NCBI RefSeq assembly: GCF_026342405.1 | Contig: NZ_JAPEMU010000005.1 | Coordinates: forward strand, 1-64,000 | Source of the DNA: Kitasatospora sp. NBC_00240 | GTDB lineage: Bacteria > Actinomycetota > Actinomycetes > Streptomycetales > Streptomycetaceae | DNA: 64,000 nucleotides | Direction: 5' to 3' | Shown here: positions 47,345 to 62,552 of the stretch, piece by piece | How the letters are laid out: each line of letters begins with the position of its first letter | How positions within the stretch are numbered: position 1 is the first letter of the stretch | Program-made: the position numbers and the translations under genes | The notes under the pieces: generated by a model | Told to the model about the DNA's origin: nothing | Seen by the model: only the letters and a program-made list of their open reading frames with translations | Database searches by the model: none

Positions 47345-49471
47345 TCAGGCGGCGGCGAGCTGGGCGGAGCCCCACTTGCCGTGGCCCAGGTCCAGGGCCT
47401 CGCCCTTCTCGGCAGCCTTGCGCAGGGTCTGGGAGACCGTGGAGGGGGAGACGCCGAGGTGGGCGGCGATGACGCCGCTGGTGCACTCGCCGCGCTCGTC
47501 GAGGTAGGCGAGGATCGCGCGCTTCTTCTCGCCCCGGGCGGGGGCGTTGGCGGCCGTGACGAGGTTGGCGAACTCGGCGGCGGACGCCGAGGTGGTCTGG
47601 GCGGGGATACGCTCGGCCGGCTTGACCATGCCGGCCTTCCCGCCAGCCTTGGCGGCCTGCGGCGCCGCACCGGCGCTCTCGTCCTTGCCCTCGCCGTCGA
47701 AGGGGATGTCGACGCCGGGAACCTGCGGCGTCTCACCGCGCCGGCGGGCCGCCAGGCGCTCACGCCAGTCGGTGTAGGCGCTCCCGCACACCGCGCGGGA
47801 CTCCTCGCCGAGGGTGCCGGGCCGGCCGCCCTTGGCCCAGCGCGTCGCGGTCTCCTTCTTCTCCGGGCGCCAGCCGCGGAAGACGGCGGCGCGGGCCTCC
47901 ACGGACTTGATGAACCCGATGCCCGTCGTGGTGGAGCCGGGCTTGCCGGGCCAGGTGGTGGGCAGGTCGTTCGGGTCGGCGGGCAGGTTGATGACGTGCC
48001 CGGCGCTCTTCTCGGTGGTGCGCAGCGCGATGATGTTGCCGCTGGTGAGGGGCTGGCGGAGCTTGGGGGAGCCGACGGAGTCGAGGGTGGGCAGGTGGGT
48101 GATCAGGCGCAGTTTGATGCCGCACTTGCGGCCGAGGATGGCGATGCGTACGGCGATGTCGATGGCTTCGGGGTAGGCGCCCCAGACGTCCTGCCATTCG
48201 TCGATGGTGATGACGAGCAGCGGCTCCTGGACGGTGGGGACGAAGTCGGTTTCGCCGTACATGAGGTCGCCGTCGGCATCCGTCCAGGTGGCGAACGCAC
48301 TGGCTTTGGAGCGGCGGTCGAGTTCGGCGTCGGCGGCCAGCAGCATGGCGAGGCACTCGTCGACGCCGGGGGCGAAGTAGTCGAGGTAGTCGGCCCAGTA
48401 GCCGAAGGACTTGCCGAACTGGGGGTCGCCGCCCCAGGAGCAGATCAGGCCGTCCGCCCAGCGTTCGATCGCGAACAGGGAGGTGACGACACCACTCTTG
48501 CCGGAGCCGGTGGCGCCGGAGATGTGGTCGTGGACCGCGCCCCAGCCGGGGCGCCACATCTGGTAGAGGGCGGGGCTGCCGTCGATGTGCGGGCCCAGGA
48601 CGGCGATGCCGGTGGTGGTGTCCAGCGCCGTCTCGACGGGGCAGTGCGGTACCTCGATGAGCGGGTTGGTCTCGTAGACGAGCAGGGTGGCCTTGTCGTT
48701 GGTGCCGTCGGCCGGCGCGTCGACGGCGACGGAGGCGATCGGCACGCCCAGGGCGCCGGCGATGCGGCCGGTCATCATGCGGGCGTCGGCAGTGGTGTGC
48801 CGCTCGGCGTCGAGGATGATGTCGGCCGCCCACGCGCCGGCCACCTCCAGCTCGCGGACGTTGGCGAGGACGGAGCCGGGCAGCGCCCCGCGTGAGGAGC
48901 CGATCTTCGCGGCCCAGCGGGCGGCCCGCTCCTCCTGGCCCTCGGGCTGGTCCTGGGCGGCGCGGATGCGCCGGCGCCACCACCACGGTCCGGCGGTGGC
49001 CGGCAGCCACGCGAACCACAGCCAGCCGGCGATCGGCGCCTCGAACGGTCCGGTGTGCATCAGCGGCATCGCGGTGACCAGCGCGCCGGCCGCCACGGTG
49101 GCGGCCGAGGTGCGCAGCAGTTCGCCGCGGCGCATCGGCCGGTCGGGCGGGGTGGGCAGCGCCCGGTGGGCGTGCAGGAAGCGCGCCGCCCGGTTGGTGT
49201 AGGGCTTCTTCTTGCGCCAGGCCCGCAGGCCGGCGACGCCGGCGGGCAGCGCCAGGTCCGCGGCGAGGGCGCCGACGCCGCCATGCGGGGCCAGGGTGAT
49301 CGCCTGGCCGTAGGCGGCGAGCGCCGCCGCGCTGTACAGCGGGGCGAGGTGGCGGCGGTGACGCCAGGCCCGGCGGTAGGCGCCGCGGGCCAGCCGCACC
49401 GACAGGGGGCCGGTCTCGGTGGGGACGGCGGTGGTGTCCGCCCCGGACGGGGCGGGGTTGGTCTTGCTCAC
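47345..49471 (-). CDS. FtsK/SpoIIIE-type DNA translocase, TraB-like
   Basis: 708 residues from GTG at 49471 with GGAAGG upstream. The N-terminal 170 residues contain about four membrane-spanning segments (e.g. LAPLYSAAALAAYGQAITLA; SAATVAAGALVTAMPLM; IAGWLWFAWLPATAGPWWW). The motor domain has HDHISGATGSGKSGVVTSLF (Walker A, near 315-335) and EPLLVITIDEWQDVWG (Walker B). The C-terminus is a winged helix (RAILAYLDERGECTSGVIAA, HLGVSPSTVSQTL), comparable with FtsK gamma. TraB proteins move double-stranded plasmid DNA between hyphae after binding 8-bp repeats through the winged helix. It is the centrepiece of the minus-strand cluster. Confidence 0.88.
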   Translation of the reverse strand: MSKTNPAPSGADTTAVPTETGPLSVRLARGAYRRAWRHRRHLAPLYSAAALAAYGQAITLAPHGGVGALAADLALPAGVAGLRAWRKKKPYTNRAARFLHAHRALPTPPDRPMRRGELLRTSAATVAAGALVTAMPLMHTGPFEAPIAGWLWFAWLPATAGPWWWRRRIRAAQDQPEGQEERAARWAAKIGSSRGALPGSVLANVRELEVAGAWAADIILDAERHTTADARMMTGRIAGALGVPIASVAVDAPADGTNDKATLLVYETNPLIEVPHCPVETALDTTTGIAVLGPHIDGSPALYQMWRPGWGAVHDHISGATGSGKSGVVTSLFAIERWADGLICSWGGDPQFGKSFGYWADYLDYFAPGVDECLAMLLAADAELDRRSKASAFATWTDADGDLMYGETDFVPTVQEPLLVITIDEWQDVWGAYPEAIDIAVRIAILGRKCGIKLRLITHLPTLDSVGSPKLRQPLTSGNIIALRTTEKSAGHVINLPADPNDLPTTWPGKPGSTTTGIGFIKSVEARAAVFRGWRPEKKETATRWAKGGRPGTLGEESRAVCGSAYTDWRERLAARRRGETPQVPGVDIPFDGEGKDESAGAAPQAAKAGGKAGMVKPAERIPAQTTSASAAEFANLVTAANAPARGEKKRAILAYLDERGECTSGVIAAHLGVSPSTVSQTLRKAAEKGEALDLGHGKWGSAQLAAA

Positions 49472-52665: not shown

Positions 52666-54408
52666 TCAGGGCCGGTAGCCGGCGGCGATGAGCTCTCCCG
52701 CCTCCAGGCGGTACTCGGACGCGGTGCTGGCGGAGGAGACCTCCAGCTCGCGCTGGATGTCGGCCAGCGGGAGGTCCGCCGGCCACACCGCGTCGGCGTC
52801 GGGGTCGGCGAGCGCGAGGATCATCCGGGCGACCTTGCGCACCGCCCGCTCGCGCGGCCGGAGCTTGGCGACGTCCTCCGCTTCGACCGCGGCCCGCTCG
52901 ATTTCGGCAGCGGCCAGCCGGATTTCGGCAGCAGCCCGAACCGCTTCGGCAGCGTCCAGGTTCGACTGCTCGACGGCGGCGAGAGCGGCCGCCTGGGCCG
53001 CCCGCTCCTCGTCCGCGAGGCGGTTCGTTTCGGCGACGGCGAGCCGGGTTTCGGCGGCGCCCTTCAGCGTTTCGGCAGCGGACCGGTTCGCTTCGGCGGC
53101 GGCGAGGCGGGCTTCGGCGATGGTCTGTGTCTCGACCGCCTGGGTCTCGGCGGCGGCGATCCGGTCGGCCTCCGCGGCCTCCCGCCGCTTCTCGGCGGCG
53201 CGCTGCTCCAGCTCTGCGGCCTCCAGGTCGAGGTCGGCCCTGGCCTTGCGCTCGGCGGCCTCCTGGGTCTGGGCGGCGGCGGTGCGGGCCTTGGCCTCGG
53301 CCATCACCGCCGTCTCCAGCGCCTCCTCCTCCGCTCGGGCGGCCCGCTCGGCGGCCGTGACCTGCGCCTGGGCGTGGGCGCGGGCCTGGCCGGTGGCGCC
53401 CTGGACCTGGGCGCGCACCGTCTCGACCTGGCCGTCCGCGCGCAGGGCCTCGGCCTGGGCCTGGGTCTCGGCGAGCCTGCGGCGGGTGTCGGCCTCCAGG
53501 CGCCGGCGCTCGGCCTCCTCCGCGCGGTCCTCGGCCGCGCGGTCCTGGTCGTCCGGCATGGCCAGCGCCCGGGCGACGGTGTAGCCGTGCGGGGCCATCG
53601 TCATCGGCAGCAGCTCGTCCTCGGTGGCCTTGCCCAGGTCGCCGCCGTGCTTGCGCTTGAGCCACACCTCGTAGGCGATGAGGTCCTGGTCCCGGCGGAC
53701 CATCTCCGGGTAGGAGTGCACGTCATACAGCCGCATCCGCCGGTAGATCCGGGGGGTTGCGATCGGGGCGAGCACCCAGCGGATCAGCGGGATGGAGTCG
53801 CGTTCCACCTGCTCAGGACGGACGATGCGGTCGATGGAGTCGCGGCCGACCTCCACCACCATGATGAACAGCACCGGGACGACACCGTGGGCGCCGGCCG
53901 CGACGTAGTCCAGCAGCCGCCAGCCGCGGCCCTGCGGGGCGGCGCTCGCGGCGTTGAGGACGACGGTCGCGGCGGTGAGCAGCCACACCGGGTAGCGGAT
54001 CCAGCCGATGGGGCGTTTGAGCCAGGCCATCAGCAGGTCGACCGCGATCATCACCATGATCCCGGTGTCGACACCGACCGCGAAGAGCTGCCCCTTGCCC
54101 AGCGAGGCGAAGTGCAGCCGGTCGAACGCGAAGGCGGCGACGTGCCCGAAGCTCAGGTAGAGGCCGATGCCCGCGAGGGCGAGCGCGGCCGCCACGATGC
54201 CAGCGGCCGCCCCCTTCTGCGGGAGGGTCAGCCGCCCGGCCGACGGCGCGGGCGAAACGGGCTCGGCCGTCTCCGAAGCGCTCCACGGTGCGGACGAAAC
54301 GGTGTCAGCTGCTCCCGAAACGGGGGCGGGCGGTGCCGAAACGGGGCCCGGCGCGGGGCGCGCCGGGCCGGGCAGGGCCGCCGTCGGCGGCATGTCGGTG
54401 ATCGTCAC
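52666..54408 (-). CDS. DUF2637-type four-TM protein with long coiled coil
   Basis: 580 residues from GTG at 54408 (GGAGG upstream). After a Ser/Pro/Val-rich head, four hydrophobic segments occur at about 58-83 (AAALALAGIGLYLSFGHVAA), 95-118 (FAVGVDTGIMVMIAVDLLMA), 127-147 and 160-178 (VVPVLFIMVVEVGRDSIDRI), the pattern of DUF2637 proteins found on actinobacterial plasmids. Next comes a globular stretch (RMRLYDVHSYPEMVRRDQDL) and a 240-residue heptad coiled coil rich in AAE (residues about 300-520), then a winged-helix-like end (LADIQRELEVSSASTASEYR). Codons for the head and coil contain 21-bp phased DNA motifs (see repeats). A structural role in transfer is inferred. Confidence 0.75.
   Translation of the reverse strand: MTITDMPPTAALPGPARPAPGPVSAPPAPVSGAADTVSSAPWSASETAEPVSPAPSAGRLTLPQKGAAAGIVAAALALAGIGLYLSFGHVAAFAFDRLHFASLGKGQLFAVGVDTGIMVMIAVDLLMAWLKRPIGWIRYPVWLLTAATVVLNAASAAPQGRGWRLLDYVAAGAHGVVPVLFIMVVEVGRDSIDRIVRPEQVERDSIPLIRWVLAPIATPRIYRRMRLYDVHSYPEMVRRDQDLIAYEVWLKRKHGGDLGKATEDELLPMTMAPHGYTVARALAMPDDQDRAAEDRAEEAERRRLEADTRRRLAETQAQAEALRADGQVETVRAQVQGATGQARAHAQAQVTAAERAARAEEEALETAVMAEAKARTAAAQTQEAAERKARADLDLEAAELEQRAAEKRREAAEADRIAAAETQAVETQTIAEARLAAAEANRSAAETLKGAAETRLAVAETNRLADEERAAQAAALAAVEQSNLDAAEAVRAAAEIRLAAAEIERAAVEAEDVAKLRPRERAVRKVARMILALADPDADAVWPADLPLADIQRELEVSSASTASEYRLEAGELIAAGYRP
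52903..53119. repeat. 21-bp phased TTCGGC motif array in the coiled-coil coding region
   Basis: TTCGG (mostly inside TTTCGGCRGC) begins at 52903, 52924, 52945, 53029, 53050, 53071, 53092 and 53113; every interval is 21 bp or a multiple (84). It corresponds to the heptads AAETLKG, AAETRLA and VAETNRL. It is the complement of the CGAAAC motif found in the upstream array, so it points the opposite way. Confidence 0.7.
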
Positions 54409-54534
54409 AGGGGCCTCCGGAAGGACTCGTTCGGGTGGTGCCGAAACGGCGGCCGGTGCTCCCGAAACGCGATCTCGCGTGTCCGAAGCCGGCCGCCGCT
54501 GTCGGCGAAGGGAAGACGGCCGGACCCGAAACAG
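54253..54534. repeat. 21-bp phased CGAAACGG array spanning the start of the 52666 gene
   Basis: CGAAACGG occurs perfectly at 54253, 54295, 54316, 54337 and 54442; one- or two-base variants begin at 54274, 54463, 54484, 54506 and 54527. Intervals are 21, 21, 21, 21, 105, 21, 21, 22 and 21 bp, placing nearly all copies on one face of the helix. Half lie inside the gene and half in the 134-bp upstream gap, so protein coding alone does not explain them. Confidence 0.8.
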
Positions 54535-54542
54535 GGCTCGGG

Positions 54543-55125
54543 TCAGGCGCGGGTGGAGGCGCTCTGGACGACGGTCAGCGCGAACTCCAGCTGCTCGGCC
54601 CAGCACCGCAGGTCGGCGGGGACGCCGGTGGCCTCCACGGCCAAGCGGCGGCTGAGCAGTTCGCCGAGGGCGGCCTCGGCGCTGCGGTGTGCCTCGTCGG
54701 CGTACACGAAGTCGGCCTCCAGAGCGGCGAGCAGCTCTCGGGCTGCTGATGCGCGTGGCCAGCAGCCGCAGGGGCTGCTCGTCGCCGTGGTCGGGGTCGG
54801 GCCGGTGCACGGTGGCGGTGGCCCGCAGGCGCATCCGCTCGGCGAACTCCTCGACCAGGGCGAGCAGGCCGGCGCGGCCCTTGGCCAGCTCCAGCTGCTC
54901 CTGGACGTCGGCGATGTGGGCGGCCGCCATCGCCAGGCTCGGCCGCCGGGCCTCGTCGTAGGCGCGGTCGGCGTCGGTGGCGGCCGCGGCCCGCTCCTTG
55001 CGCGCGGTGCGCCAGGTCAGGCGTCGGGCCGGGTCGTCCAGCCAGCGGCCGAGCTCCACCAGCTGCTCCAGCGGGTCGGGAAGGTGCTCCACGCCGAGGT
55101 GCGTGGTCCGGGTCGGCTTGCTCAC
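54543..55125 (-). pseudogene. Helical protein gene interrupted by a one-base frameshift
   Basis: From GTG at 55125 (strong AGGAGG upstream) the frame reads MSKPTRTTHLGVEHLPDPLE, a helical body (MAAAHIADVQEQLELAKGRA), then HRPDPDHGDEQPLRLLATRI. Near 54740-54742 an extra base in a GGG run breaks the frame. In the next frame the protein plainly continues as ELLAALEADFVYADEAHRSA, AEQLEFALTVVQSASTRA and a stop at 54543. The intact product would be about 193 residues. It may be a real lesion, a sequencing slip or programmed frameshifting. Confidence 0.7.
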
Positions 55126-59570: not shown

Positions 59571-60767
59571 GTGAAGACGAGCACGACGCGCCAGGGCTTC
59601 ACTGGTCGGATTCACCGTGGGCCGATGGCGGCCGACATCATCCAGCGTGACTTCACCCGGGTCTACAACCGGGCCATCCGTGACAAGCGGATCAGCCGGC
59701 GGGCCCGGGGCCTGCTGGTGGAGATGATGAGCCACCAGGACGGCTTCGGGATCTCGATGGCGGCGCTGATCGCCGGAGGCCCGGAGAAGAAGGACGCCTT
59801 GCAGACCGCTCTGTGGGAGCTGGAGAAGTACGGCTACCTGCACCGGGACCGGGCTCGCAACGAGCTGGGGCAGCTCGGCGAGACCCTGTTCTTCATCACG
59901 GACATGCCTGACGGGATGTCTCTGGAAGCCCCCGCGCCCTGGTCCAGCCAGGCCCCCGAACCCGCCCCTGACGACCAGGCGGGCGCCCCTGGGGCGCCCG
60001 AACCGGCCGATCCGCAAAACCGCAGGTCAGAGCCAGGGACGGAAAATCCGCCTCTGGATGGTCCCGGACAAACGCCCAGGTCAGAACCTAAGACGGATTT
60101 CCCTGCGCAGGGTTTTCCTGCGCAGGGAAATCCGCCGCATAAGAAGACCACTTCCTCCTCACGGAGTGAGAAGACTCTCTCTCCTCCCGCCGATGTGCAG
60201 GAGCCGCAGGTGGCTCCGGCGCCTCGGACGAGAGAGATCGCTGCTTCGCAGGACCACAACGACCCGGCTGCGCCGGCGCCCGCCGACAACGGCGACACAG
60301 CCGCGCCCGTTCCGGCGCAGCGCGCGCAGGACATGGCGGCTTCGCCCACGGAGCAGGTGCTGGCTGCCTACGAGGCGGCTCTCGGCGGCGTGGCGCTGGA
60401 CCGGGCCAAGCTGCTGGCCCAGGCCGAGCAGCTGCTGGCGGTTCGGCCGCTGTGGTGGGTGGTGGACCGTGCCCGGGAGCTGCCGCAGTGGGGCGACGAC
60501 CTGAAGCTGCACGCCGGCAAGTCGAAGGTGCCGTTCACCAAGCCGAAGCCGGCGGCCCGGCCGCAGGGTGTGCCGCCGGTGGATCCGACCCGGAAGAAGG
60601 CGCCGATGCCCGCGCACATCGCGGCGCTGCGGGCCTCGGTCCAGGCCGGTCAGGCTCCGGCGCCCGCCGCCGGGCCGGCTGTACCGCCTGCGGCCGCGCC
60701 GCCGGACGGCGCACCGGCCCGGTCCGTGAGTGACCTGCTGGCGAGTCTGGCCTCGCCGAACATCTGA
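59571..60767 (+). CDS. Rep-like winged-helix protein with candidate origin in its linker
   Basis: 398 residues. The first 110 form a winged-helix replication-initiator type domain (DFTRVYNRAIRDKRISRRAR, then GLLVEMMSHQDGFGISMAAL, ALWELEKYGYLHRDRARNEL). Next is a long Pro/Ser/Ala linker, then a C-terminal helical domain (VLAAYEAALGGVALDRAKLL) with a basic KPKPAARP tail, in the layout of DnaD-like or Rep proteins that load helicase. It lies 82 bp upstream of dnaB. In linear streptomycete plasmids such as pSLA2 the origin lies within the first of two rep genes; the repeats at 60024-60133 fit that plan. GTG start at 59571. Confidence 0.75.
   Translation: MKTSTTRQGFTGRIHRGPMAADIIQRDFTRVYNRAIRDKRISRRARGLLVEMMSHQDGFGISMAALIAGGPEKKDALQTALWELEKYGYLHRDRARNELGQLGETLFFITDMPDGMSLEAPAPWSSQAPEPAPDDQAGAPGAPEPADPQNRRSEPGTENPPLDGPGQTPRSEPKTDFPAQGFPAQGNPPHKKTTSSSRSEKTLSPPADVQEPQVAPAPRTREIAASQDHNDPAAPAPADNGDTAAPVPAQRAQDMAASPTEQVLAAYEAALGGVALDRAKLLAQAEQLLAVRPLWWVVDRARELPQWGDDLKLHAGKSKVPFTKPKPAARPQGVPPVDPTRKKAPMPAHIAALRASVQAGQAPAPAAGPAVPPAAAPPDGAPARSVSDLLASLASPNI
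60024..60133. repeat. Candidate replication origin: inverted repeat and direct repeats
   Basis: GGATTTCCCTGCGCAGG (60095-60111) is perfectly repeated in reverse as CCTGCGCAGGGAAATCC (60117-60133) around GTTTT. AGGTCAG motifs precede GACGGAAAATCCGCC and GACGGATTTCC at 60024 and 60078, 54 bp apart. This AT-richer patch sits in the disordered linker of the rep-like protein, where coding constraint is low. Confidence 0.65.
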
Positions 60768-60848: not shown

Positions 60849-62552
60849 ATGAGCGTACCCAGCCAGAGCACCGCCGAGCCGCACGACTGGAGCGACACCA
60901 CCGCCGAGCCGGACCCGCAGGACGATCCGGCCCAGGAGCCGACCCCGGCGCCGCGCCGCCGCGCCCGCAAGAAGGCCGGCCCCGCCGACGCCCCCGAGCC
61001 CCAGGCCGCCTTCGAGCGGGTGCCGCCCGGCGGCAAGCCCGAGCACCTGGACGCGGAGCAGGCCGTCCTCGGCAGCCTCCTGATGAGCAACGACGTCCTC
61101 GCGGACGTCACCGACATCCTCAAGCCAGACGACTACTACCGCCCCGCCCACGGACTGATCCACCACGCGGTCCTGGCCGTCGTGGCCAAGGGGGACCCGG
61201 CCGACCCCATCACCGTGGCCGACGAACTGCGCAAGCGCGCCGAGCTGGACCGTGTCGGCGGACCCGCCTACCTCCACACCCTCGTCAACTCCGTGCCCAC
61301 CGCGGCGAACGCCGAGTACTACGCGGAGATCGTGCGCGAGCAGGCCGTGCTGCGCCGCTTGGTGGGAGCCGGTACCCGCATCGCCGGCATGGGCTACGCC
61401 GCGGAAGGCGAAGTGGACGAGATCGTCGCGGCCGCCGCCGCCGAGATCGCCCAGGTGATGGAGACCCGCGGCCGCGAGGACGACTTCGAGCTGCCGGACC
61501 AGACCATCGGCGCCACCCTCGACGAGATCGAGGCCGCCGGCAGCCGGCAGGGTGTCTACGGTGTGCCGACCGGCTTCGCCGACCTGGACGCCCTCACCCA
61601 CGGCTGGCAGCCCGGCCAGGTCATCATCGTCGCCGCCCGCCCCGGCATCGGGAAGTCCACCCTGGCCCTGGACTTCGCCCGGGCCTGCACCATGCCCCGC
61701 ACCAGCGCCGGCCGGCCCGTCGACGGCACCGGCCGCCCGGCCGCCTTCATCAGCCTGGAGATGAGCACCACCGAGCTCAACATGCGCGCCCTGTCCGCCG
61801 AGGCCCGCGTCAGCCTCGCCCACCTGCGCGCCGGCACCCTCACCGACAACGAATGGGAGCGCCTGGCCCCCGCCGTCGAGCGCTACCGCGCCGCCCAGCT
61901 CCACATCAACCAGAGCGCCAAGGGCCTGCCCGAGATCCAGGCCAAGCTGCGCCGGCTCAAGACCCGGGTGCCCGACCTCGCCCTGGTCGTCATCGACTAC
62001 ATGCAGCTCATCGAGGGCGGCAGCAAGAAGCGCAGCCAGGACAACCGCCAGCAGGAGGTCTCCGACATCAGCCGCTGCCTCAAGCTGCTCGCCAAGGAAC
62101 TGCAGCTGCCGATCGTGGTGCTTGCCCAGCTCAACCGCGGGCCCGAGCAGCGCAACGACAAGAAGCCGGCGGTCTCCGACCTGCGCGAGTCCGGCAGCAT
62201 CGAGCAGGACGCCGACATCGTGATCCTGCTGCACCGCCCCGACGCCTACGAGCCGGAGTCCCCGCGCGCCGGCGAGACCGACCTCATCGTCGGCAAGCAC
62301 CGCAACGGCCCCCAGGCCACGATCTCGGTCGGCGCGCAGCTCCACTACTCGCAGTTCGTCGACATGGCCCGCGACACCGAGACCAGCGACCGCAGGCCCA
62401 CCACCGCCCTCCACGGCACCGGGGCGATCGGCCTGGGCACCATCTCGGCCGAGCGCGGCACCGAACTCGGCTGGGACGACGACGGCCAGGACGACACCGA
62501 CACCCGGGGATGGTCGCGCACCAGCAACCTGGGATCCGAACTCGGCCTGTAG
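60849..62552 (+). CDS. dnaB: Replicative DNA helicase DnaB
   Basis: 567 residues, full length. After a Pro/Glu-rich N-terminus the DnaB N-domain starts at KPEHLDAEQAVLGSLLMSND (about 63). The RecA-like motor has VIIVAARPGIGKSTLALDFA (Walker A, about 257-276), AAFISLEMSTTELNMRALSA (H1a/H2), ALVVIDYMQLIEGG (Walker B) and IVVLAQLNRGPEQR, then DLRESGSIEQDADIVILLHR. All helicase motifs are intact. It unwinds DNA ahead of the fork and, being next to the rep-like gene, is plausibly the plasmid's own helicase (as rep2 in pSLA2-type plasmids). Confidence 0.95.
   Translation: MSVPSQSTAEPHDWSDTTAEPDPQDDPAQEPTPAPRRRARKKAGPADAPEPQAAFERVPPGGKPEHLDAEQAVLGSLLMSNDVLADVTDILKPDDYYRPAHGLIHHAVLAVVAKGDPADPITVADELRKRAELDRVGGPAYLHTLVNSVPTAANAEYYAEIVREQAVLRRLVGAGTRIAGMGYAAEGEVDEIVAAAAAEIAQVMETRGREDDFELPDQTIGATLDEIEAAGSRQGVYGVPTGFADLDALTHGWQPGQVIIVAARPGIGKSTLALDFARACTMPRTSAGRPVDGTGRPAAFISLEMSTTELNMRALSAEARVSLAHLRAGTLTDNEWERLAPAVERYRAAQLHINQSAKGLPEIQAKLRRLKTRVPDLALVVIDYMQLIEGGSKKRSQDNRQQEVSDISRCLKLLAKELQLPIVVLAQLNRGPEQRNDKKPAVSDLRESGSIEQDADIVILLHRPDAYEPESPRAGETDLIVGKHRNGPQATISVGAQLHYSQFVDMARDTETSDRRPTTALHGTGAIGLGTISAERGTELGWDDDGQDDTDTRGWSRTSNLGSELGL

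Follow-up and report, generated by a model that had tools for sequence, protein, structure and literature searches.

The DUF2637 membrane-protein gene in the 64-kb stretch of DNA analysed here (the window) carries two inverted arrays of a short, helically phased repeat, one across its start codon and the other in the part encoding the coiled coil. The arrays are conserved at the DNA level in related loci, and the motif type is linked to the C-terminal helix-turn-helix tip of the encoded protein. From these sequence comparisons, the array is probably a cooperative binding site for the protein of its own gene, which would autoregulate this gene and tether the plasmid.

Two inverted arrays in the window

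The window is a contig of a conjugative-type plasmid, encoding a TraB-like motor with a winged helix (47345-49471), and it also encodes a replication-initiator-like protein (59571-60767) and a DnaB helicase (60849-62552). The 5' array (54253..54534, + strand) was composed of ten CGAA(A/G)C-type copies about 21 bp apart. The coding N-terminus contained five of them (54253-54344), and the other five were in the intergenic gap (54442-54534). On the + strand, the coding copies were 54253 CGAAACGG, 54274 CGAAGCGC, 54295 CGAAACGG, 54316 CGAAACGG, and 54337 CGAAACGG, and the intergenic copies were 54442 CGAAACGG, 54463 CGAAACGC, 54484 CGAAGCCG, 54506 CGAAGGGA (weak), and 54527 CGAAACAG. The steps between successive copies were 21, 21, 21, 21, 105, 21, 21, 22, and 21 bp; an earlier note on this DNA had described ten positions in steps of about 21 bp, including one of 105 and one of 22, across the start codon, and all were found again at the same places. 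The intergenic region between the stop codon of the upstream gene (54545-54543) and the DUF2637 start spans 54409..54542, and since the upstream gene ends at 54543, the five distal copies of the 5' array are intergenic. Neither a sigma-70-type promoter nor a terminator was found upstream of the DUF2637 gene.

The upstream gene (54543-55125, - strand) is apparently a single gene interrupted near 54755 by a change of frame, with a GTG start at 55125 preceded by AGGAGG, and its other frame ends in ...LEFALTVVQSASTRA with the stop at 54545-54543. The frame change is either a sequencing error or a frameshift, and the 819-aa open reading frame 52666-55125 is an accidental read-through.

The 3' array (52880..53116, - strand), which was not part of the earlier note and makes the feature larger than first described, contained the same motif on the opposite strand in a single 21-bp phase, formed by GCC GAA codons in DNA encoding the Ala-Glu heptads of the coiled coil. 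Its copies were 53111-53116, 53090-53095, 53069-53074, 53048-53053, 53027-53032, 52943-52948, and 52880-52885.

For CGAAACGG with at most one mismatch, the window-wide enrichment was not significant (68 copies vs 62 +/- 8 expected), so the unusual features are the phasing and the clustering of the copies. All 21-bp pairs of CGAARC or GYTTCG in the 64-kb window were located within the DUF2637 gene region, six in the 5' array and four in the 3' array. Genome-wide (10.4 Mb), 40 such pairs were present, of which 10 lay within this 1.5-kb stretch and the others were scattered singles.

The DUF2637 gene and its protein

The gene (52666..54408, - strand) encodes 580 aa, starts with GTG at 54408 behind a clear GGAGG ribosome site, and was assigned by its Pfam match to PF10935 (E 1.9e-20; 73.8 bits vs a cut-off of 22.8), by hydropathy, and by sequence. 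The protein consists of N-terminal Pro/Val/Ser heptads, hydrophobic helices, a long Ala/Glu coiled coil, and a predicted C-terminal helix-turn-helix. In the Kyte-Doolittle profile, the membrane part (53848..54210, - strand) contained hydrophobic segments at residues 67-85, 108-126, and 169-187.

The C-terminal helix-turn-helix, at about residues 515-577 (52678..52866, - strand) and ending in ...LPLADIQRELEVSSASTASEYRLEAGELIAAGYRP, is the proposed reader of the array and was delineated by AlphaFold2, fold comparison, and family alignment. For the last 91 residues, AlphaFold2 gave a pLDDT of 88 with helices at 29-44, 59-66, and 71-86, a layout predicted to be a helix-turn-helix. Foldseek returned nothing strong with this model. 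In VIA-align, the best row was the DeoR DNA-binding domain on its operator, a weak match with no sequence match (Z 5.2 over 51 residues), and the top rows included other DNA-binding domains; the fold comparison of the modelled tip is supportive and not proof. Searches of Pfam, NCBIfam, and PDB sequences gave no assignment for the C-terminal domain.

Each of the 70 genomes sampled from the window's genus contained DUF2637 proteins. The family occurs on hundreds of actinomycete plasmids, 294 plasmid records matching the window's DUF2637 protein. No function of DUF2637 was found in the literature searched, where the one paper naming the domain is a genome report.

Conservation and codon choice in related loci

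The locus was shared at the DNA level by 134 plasmid records; 22 loci were read in detail, together with 56 more from genomes of the family, and for distant loci a rule was used to assign the start codons. The earlier note had proposed looking for the same phased motif at DUF2637 genes of related plasmids, and the layout recurred in 31 loci of the window's group. In these loci, the gene strand carried GYTTCG at about -82, -61, and -40, often also at -103, -188, and -209, and in the coding part at +45, +66, +87, +108, and +129. The spacing across the start codon was 85 or 106 bp in most of the 31 loci, so that the intergenic copies are usually out of the reading frame of the coding copies.

The helical phase of 259 copies gave a mean resultant of 0.94 at 10.6 bp and 0.30 at 11 bp, and that of the intergenic copies alone gave R = 0.965, in agreement with the earlier claim that the array is a phased, sequence-specific DNA element. 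Upstream of the start, conservation was 0.96 in the motif columns vs 0.73 in the neighbouring columns.

The codons at the motif sites were also distinctive. In counts that pool related and hence non-independent sequences, Val of Val-Ser in the first 60 residues was encoded by GTT in 104 of 105 cases vs 44 of 1044 for Val elsewhere, and Glu of in-phase Ala-Glu-(Ala/Thr) was encoded by GAA in 180 of 195 cases vs 36 of 193 off phase in the same context. The preference had the same direction in 31 of 31 loci, indicating from sequence that the motif dictates rare synonymous codons at its coding sites. The intergenic copies, the frame-breaking steps, and the retention of rare codons together argue that the array is selected at the DNA level and not through the protein. 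The view in the earlier note that the array is more than heptad coding therefore held, half of the 5' array being intergenic and rare codons lying at the motif sites; chance or a heptad artefact as origin was ruled out by the intergenic conservation and the codon tests.

In eight genomes with triple matches and no DUF2637 protein with a matching helix-turn-helix, the matches were confined to short, isolated runs, of which many were coding-like repeats. In viral contigs, no protein relatives were found, and among 85 triple-motif stretches the longest chain was 5 and the full layout was not seen. Phage VWB gp24 contains DUF2637 with a different C-terminus and had no array.

The motif type follows the C-terminal helix-turn-helix

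No array was found with DUF2637-type proteins of unrelated C-termini (loci L004, L005, L014, L016, L017, L019, and L020). In L008-L010, the membrane domain belonged to a divergent subfamily, and the motif and the helix-turn-helix were retained. Compared with L002, these three loci kept the N-terminal heptads, the coil, and the C-terminal domain despite the divergent membrane domain, a pattern of modular exchange.

Loci of another group, in which the C-terminus was related to the window's yet different (VPLSTIMDVLNVKQTAAGDIRRAA and relatives), used GCTCCG in the same 5' geometry; these were L013, L015, L018, L094, and, at the 5' end, L112. An example is L015, which had copies at -120, -99, -78, -57, -36, +48, +69, and +111. 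A de novo search for inverted phased 6-mers recovered GTTTCG/TTTCGG in the window's group and GCTCCG in the other group; scores of the same-strand control were mostly much lower, and some loci scored similarly low. The 3' array of the GCTCCG group was inseparable from ordinary Ala-Glu codon use and was not counted as support.

In the helix-turn-helix tree, the GCTCCG users formed one clade with support 80, whereas the membrane-domain tree split them between two places with starred branches in between, since L112 joins a distant membrane domain to a GCTCCG-type tip. On this sequence comparison, which includes one or two switches, the motif type appears to follow the protein's own helix-turn-helix tip; with so few evolutionary switch events, the co-variation of motif and tip could come from shared descent. 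L104, L113, and L117 have a recognisable relative of the tip, yet no GYTTCG, GCTCCG, or other array was found there, and a search for a third motif in these three loci and in the L016/L122/L124 group gave none that was convincing.

In the GCTCCG group, the DUF2637 gene is followed by a convergent helix-turn-helix gene (L013 6460-7044; L015 6498-7049; L018 6192-6734), and this neighbouring gene could encode the reader of GCTCCG there.

Candidate readers of the arrays

The earlier note had offered the TraB-like motor and the GntR repressor as readers of the array, and neither suggestion was sustained. As a plasmid clt, the array would be an 8-bp recognition cluster read by the winged helix of the TraB-like protein (47345-49471) and used for loading in double-stranded transfer. 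The gene neighbourhood is indeed a transfer region, TraB of pSVH1 reads 8-bp repeats (PMC5133688; PMC4170104), and in pWTY27 the clt contains repeats and extends over the end of a gene (PMC3583192). However, the Kitasatospora indigofera plasmid NZ_CP108210.1 encodes a TraB-like protein 83% identical to that of the window, whose winged helix differs by one V-to-I, and no 21-bp pair of the motif occurs in the complete plasmid (58,557 bp), which has a different protein at the DUF2637 position. The motors of the plasmids that do carry the array were mostly less than 60% identical to the window's or not detected, the compared ends differed, and their winged helix was divergent or not recognisable, so that clt is an unlikely identity for the array. 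Use of the array as an operator by the nearby GntR repressor, or by another soluble regulator such as WhiB or a host protein, would agree with the copies just upstream of the gene start and with the GntR genes near many of these loci. UTRA/GntR proteins generally bind palindromes, but the motif is a direct repeat. In addition, L020 has a GntR 90% identical to the window's (87% in the DNA-binding part) and a DUF2637 gene without an array, the GntRs of array-bearing plasmids are only 25-34% identical to the window's, and a host regulator would leave the plasmid-specific motif switch unexplained, all of which makes an operator of this kind very unlikely. These comparisons indicate that the TraB-like motor and GntR are unlikely binders; they bear on these binders and not on a role in transfer.

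Direct repeats of about 21 bp on one helix face and partly over a promoter are typical of iterons and parC sites, and the array has this spacing and helix-face arrangement, as expected if a replication or Par protein of the plasmid used it for replication or partition, as iterons or as a parC-like centromere. Against this, the array goes with the DUF2637 gene in plasmids and integrated copies whose replication genes differ, neither a Rep nor a Par gene lies beside it in the window, and a second, inverted array is hidden in coding DNA, leaving such a function a low probability. The array might also be a by-product of protein heptads and recent duplication of a 21-bp unit, the coding copies encoding Val-Ser and Ala-Glu heptads, but half of the 5' array is intergenic, the 85- and 106-bp steps break the codon frame, and diverged loci retain the rare codons at motif sites only; the probability of this origin is negligible.

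Proposed self-recognition by the DUF2637 protein

Under the preferred reading, in which the array is bound by the product of its own gene, the DUF2637 helices would hold the protein in the membrane and the long coiled coil would reach into the cytoplasm. The helix-turn-helix tip would read CG(T/C)TTCG (= CGAA(A/G)CG), one motif per two turns, with neighbouring molecules side by side cooperating on one DNA face at every second turn. The occupied sites would be the array over the promoter and start and its inverted counterpart in the coil-coding part, about 1.2 kb farther downstream, and the membrane-held coiled coils may bridge these two arrays, forming a loop. Binding would dampen transcription of the protein's own gene, and the plasmid would be docked at the membrane or septum, within the transfer/spread apparatus or for partition. 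Binding, looping between the arrays, autoregulation, and tethering are steps that we infer from sequence.

In most plasmids, the DUF2637 gene is located between the GntR-side genes and the transfer motor genes, and on some large plasmids an array-less DUF2637 gene directly follows parA-parB (L017 4926-6617; L019 4812-6491), a neighbourhood hinting at a link of the family with partition. Given these two settings, transfer/spread and segregation are both candidate roles. More tentatively, the system may be a membrane-embedded centromere or transfer anchor, that is, a membrane-protein family with an interchangeable DNA-reading tip and two inverted phased self-arrays written in synonymous codons, which would serve transfer, spread, or segregation by docking the plasmid at the membrane or septum. 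If such an anchor exists, gene, DNA site, and protein specificity would travel as one unit.

The proposal would give one DUF2637 family a concrete, testable job, in which a membrane protein binds DNA sequence-specifically at a defined site. The proposal would also supply a cis site and a trans factor for the membrane contact of Streptomyces-type linear plasmids, a long-standing gap beside the well-studied TraB. In addition, the locus would be a clear example from nature of protein-coding DNA that also serves as a putative binding-site array, with synonymous codons held by DNA recognition.

Comparison with known systems

A self-recognised repeat site on a plasmid is already known, and the new elements here are the proposed membrane-anchored reader and the codon-embedded sites. 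SpdA2 of pIJ101 is a plasmid DNA-binding protein that recognises repeats (sps) within the gene encoding it, and its effect is on stability and not on transfer (PMC4170104). The SpdA/SpdA2-sps systems of pIJ101 and pSVH1 resemble the window in that the DNA-binding protein of a spread/stability gene has repeated sites inside or at the start of its own gene; however, the sps repeat is palindromic, 12 bp long, and present in 2-3 copies, and SpdA2 is small and without DUF2637 (PMC4170104). The two inverted arrays of the window, in contrast, contain about 10 + 7 sites that are short, direct, and helically phased, and the protein has membrane helices and a coiled coil. Membership of the SpdA/sps system was rejected, the motif CGTTTCG not being palindromic and the protein being a DUF2637 protein.

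The TraB-clt sites of Streptomyces plasmids are repeats of 7-9 bp (PMC3583192; PMC5133688). With their 8-bp TRS repeats, they are like the window array in being short repeats clustered near or within the transfer genes of a conjugative plasmid, but the window motif is CGAAAC-type and not GACCCGGA, is strictly phased at two turns across a start codon, and does not follow the TraB-like winged helix. SpdB2, as cited in PMC4170104, is a membrane protein that interacts with TraB and binds DNA non-specifically. It is like the DUF2637 protein in being a membrane protein of the transfer/spread region with DNA binding (proposed for the DUF2637 protein), and unlike it in that the binding of SpdB2 is described, in that citation, as non-specific.

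ParR-parC and plasmid iterons are direct repeats at helical spacing over a promoter that are cooperatively bound and autoregulatory. The window array has helically spaced direct repeats over a putative promoter, and cooperative binding and autoregulation are proposed for it as well; in contrast to these systems, its proposed reader is membrane-anchored and part of its sites are placed in coding DNA through codon choice.

Short GTTTCG triplets with inverted duplicates were also observed at G295:C8:127116, G295:C12:162, and G228:C1:343186 and 345008, in genomes without a matching helix-turn-helix protein. At the DUF2637 position of two Kitasatospora plasmids (L004 7340-8944; L005 7405-9012), where no array was found, another protein is encoded. 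It has the same architecture as the DUF2637 protein, with membrane helices and a coiled coil, and its helix-turn-helix-like C-terminal end is unrelated.
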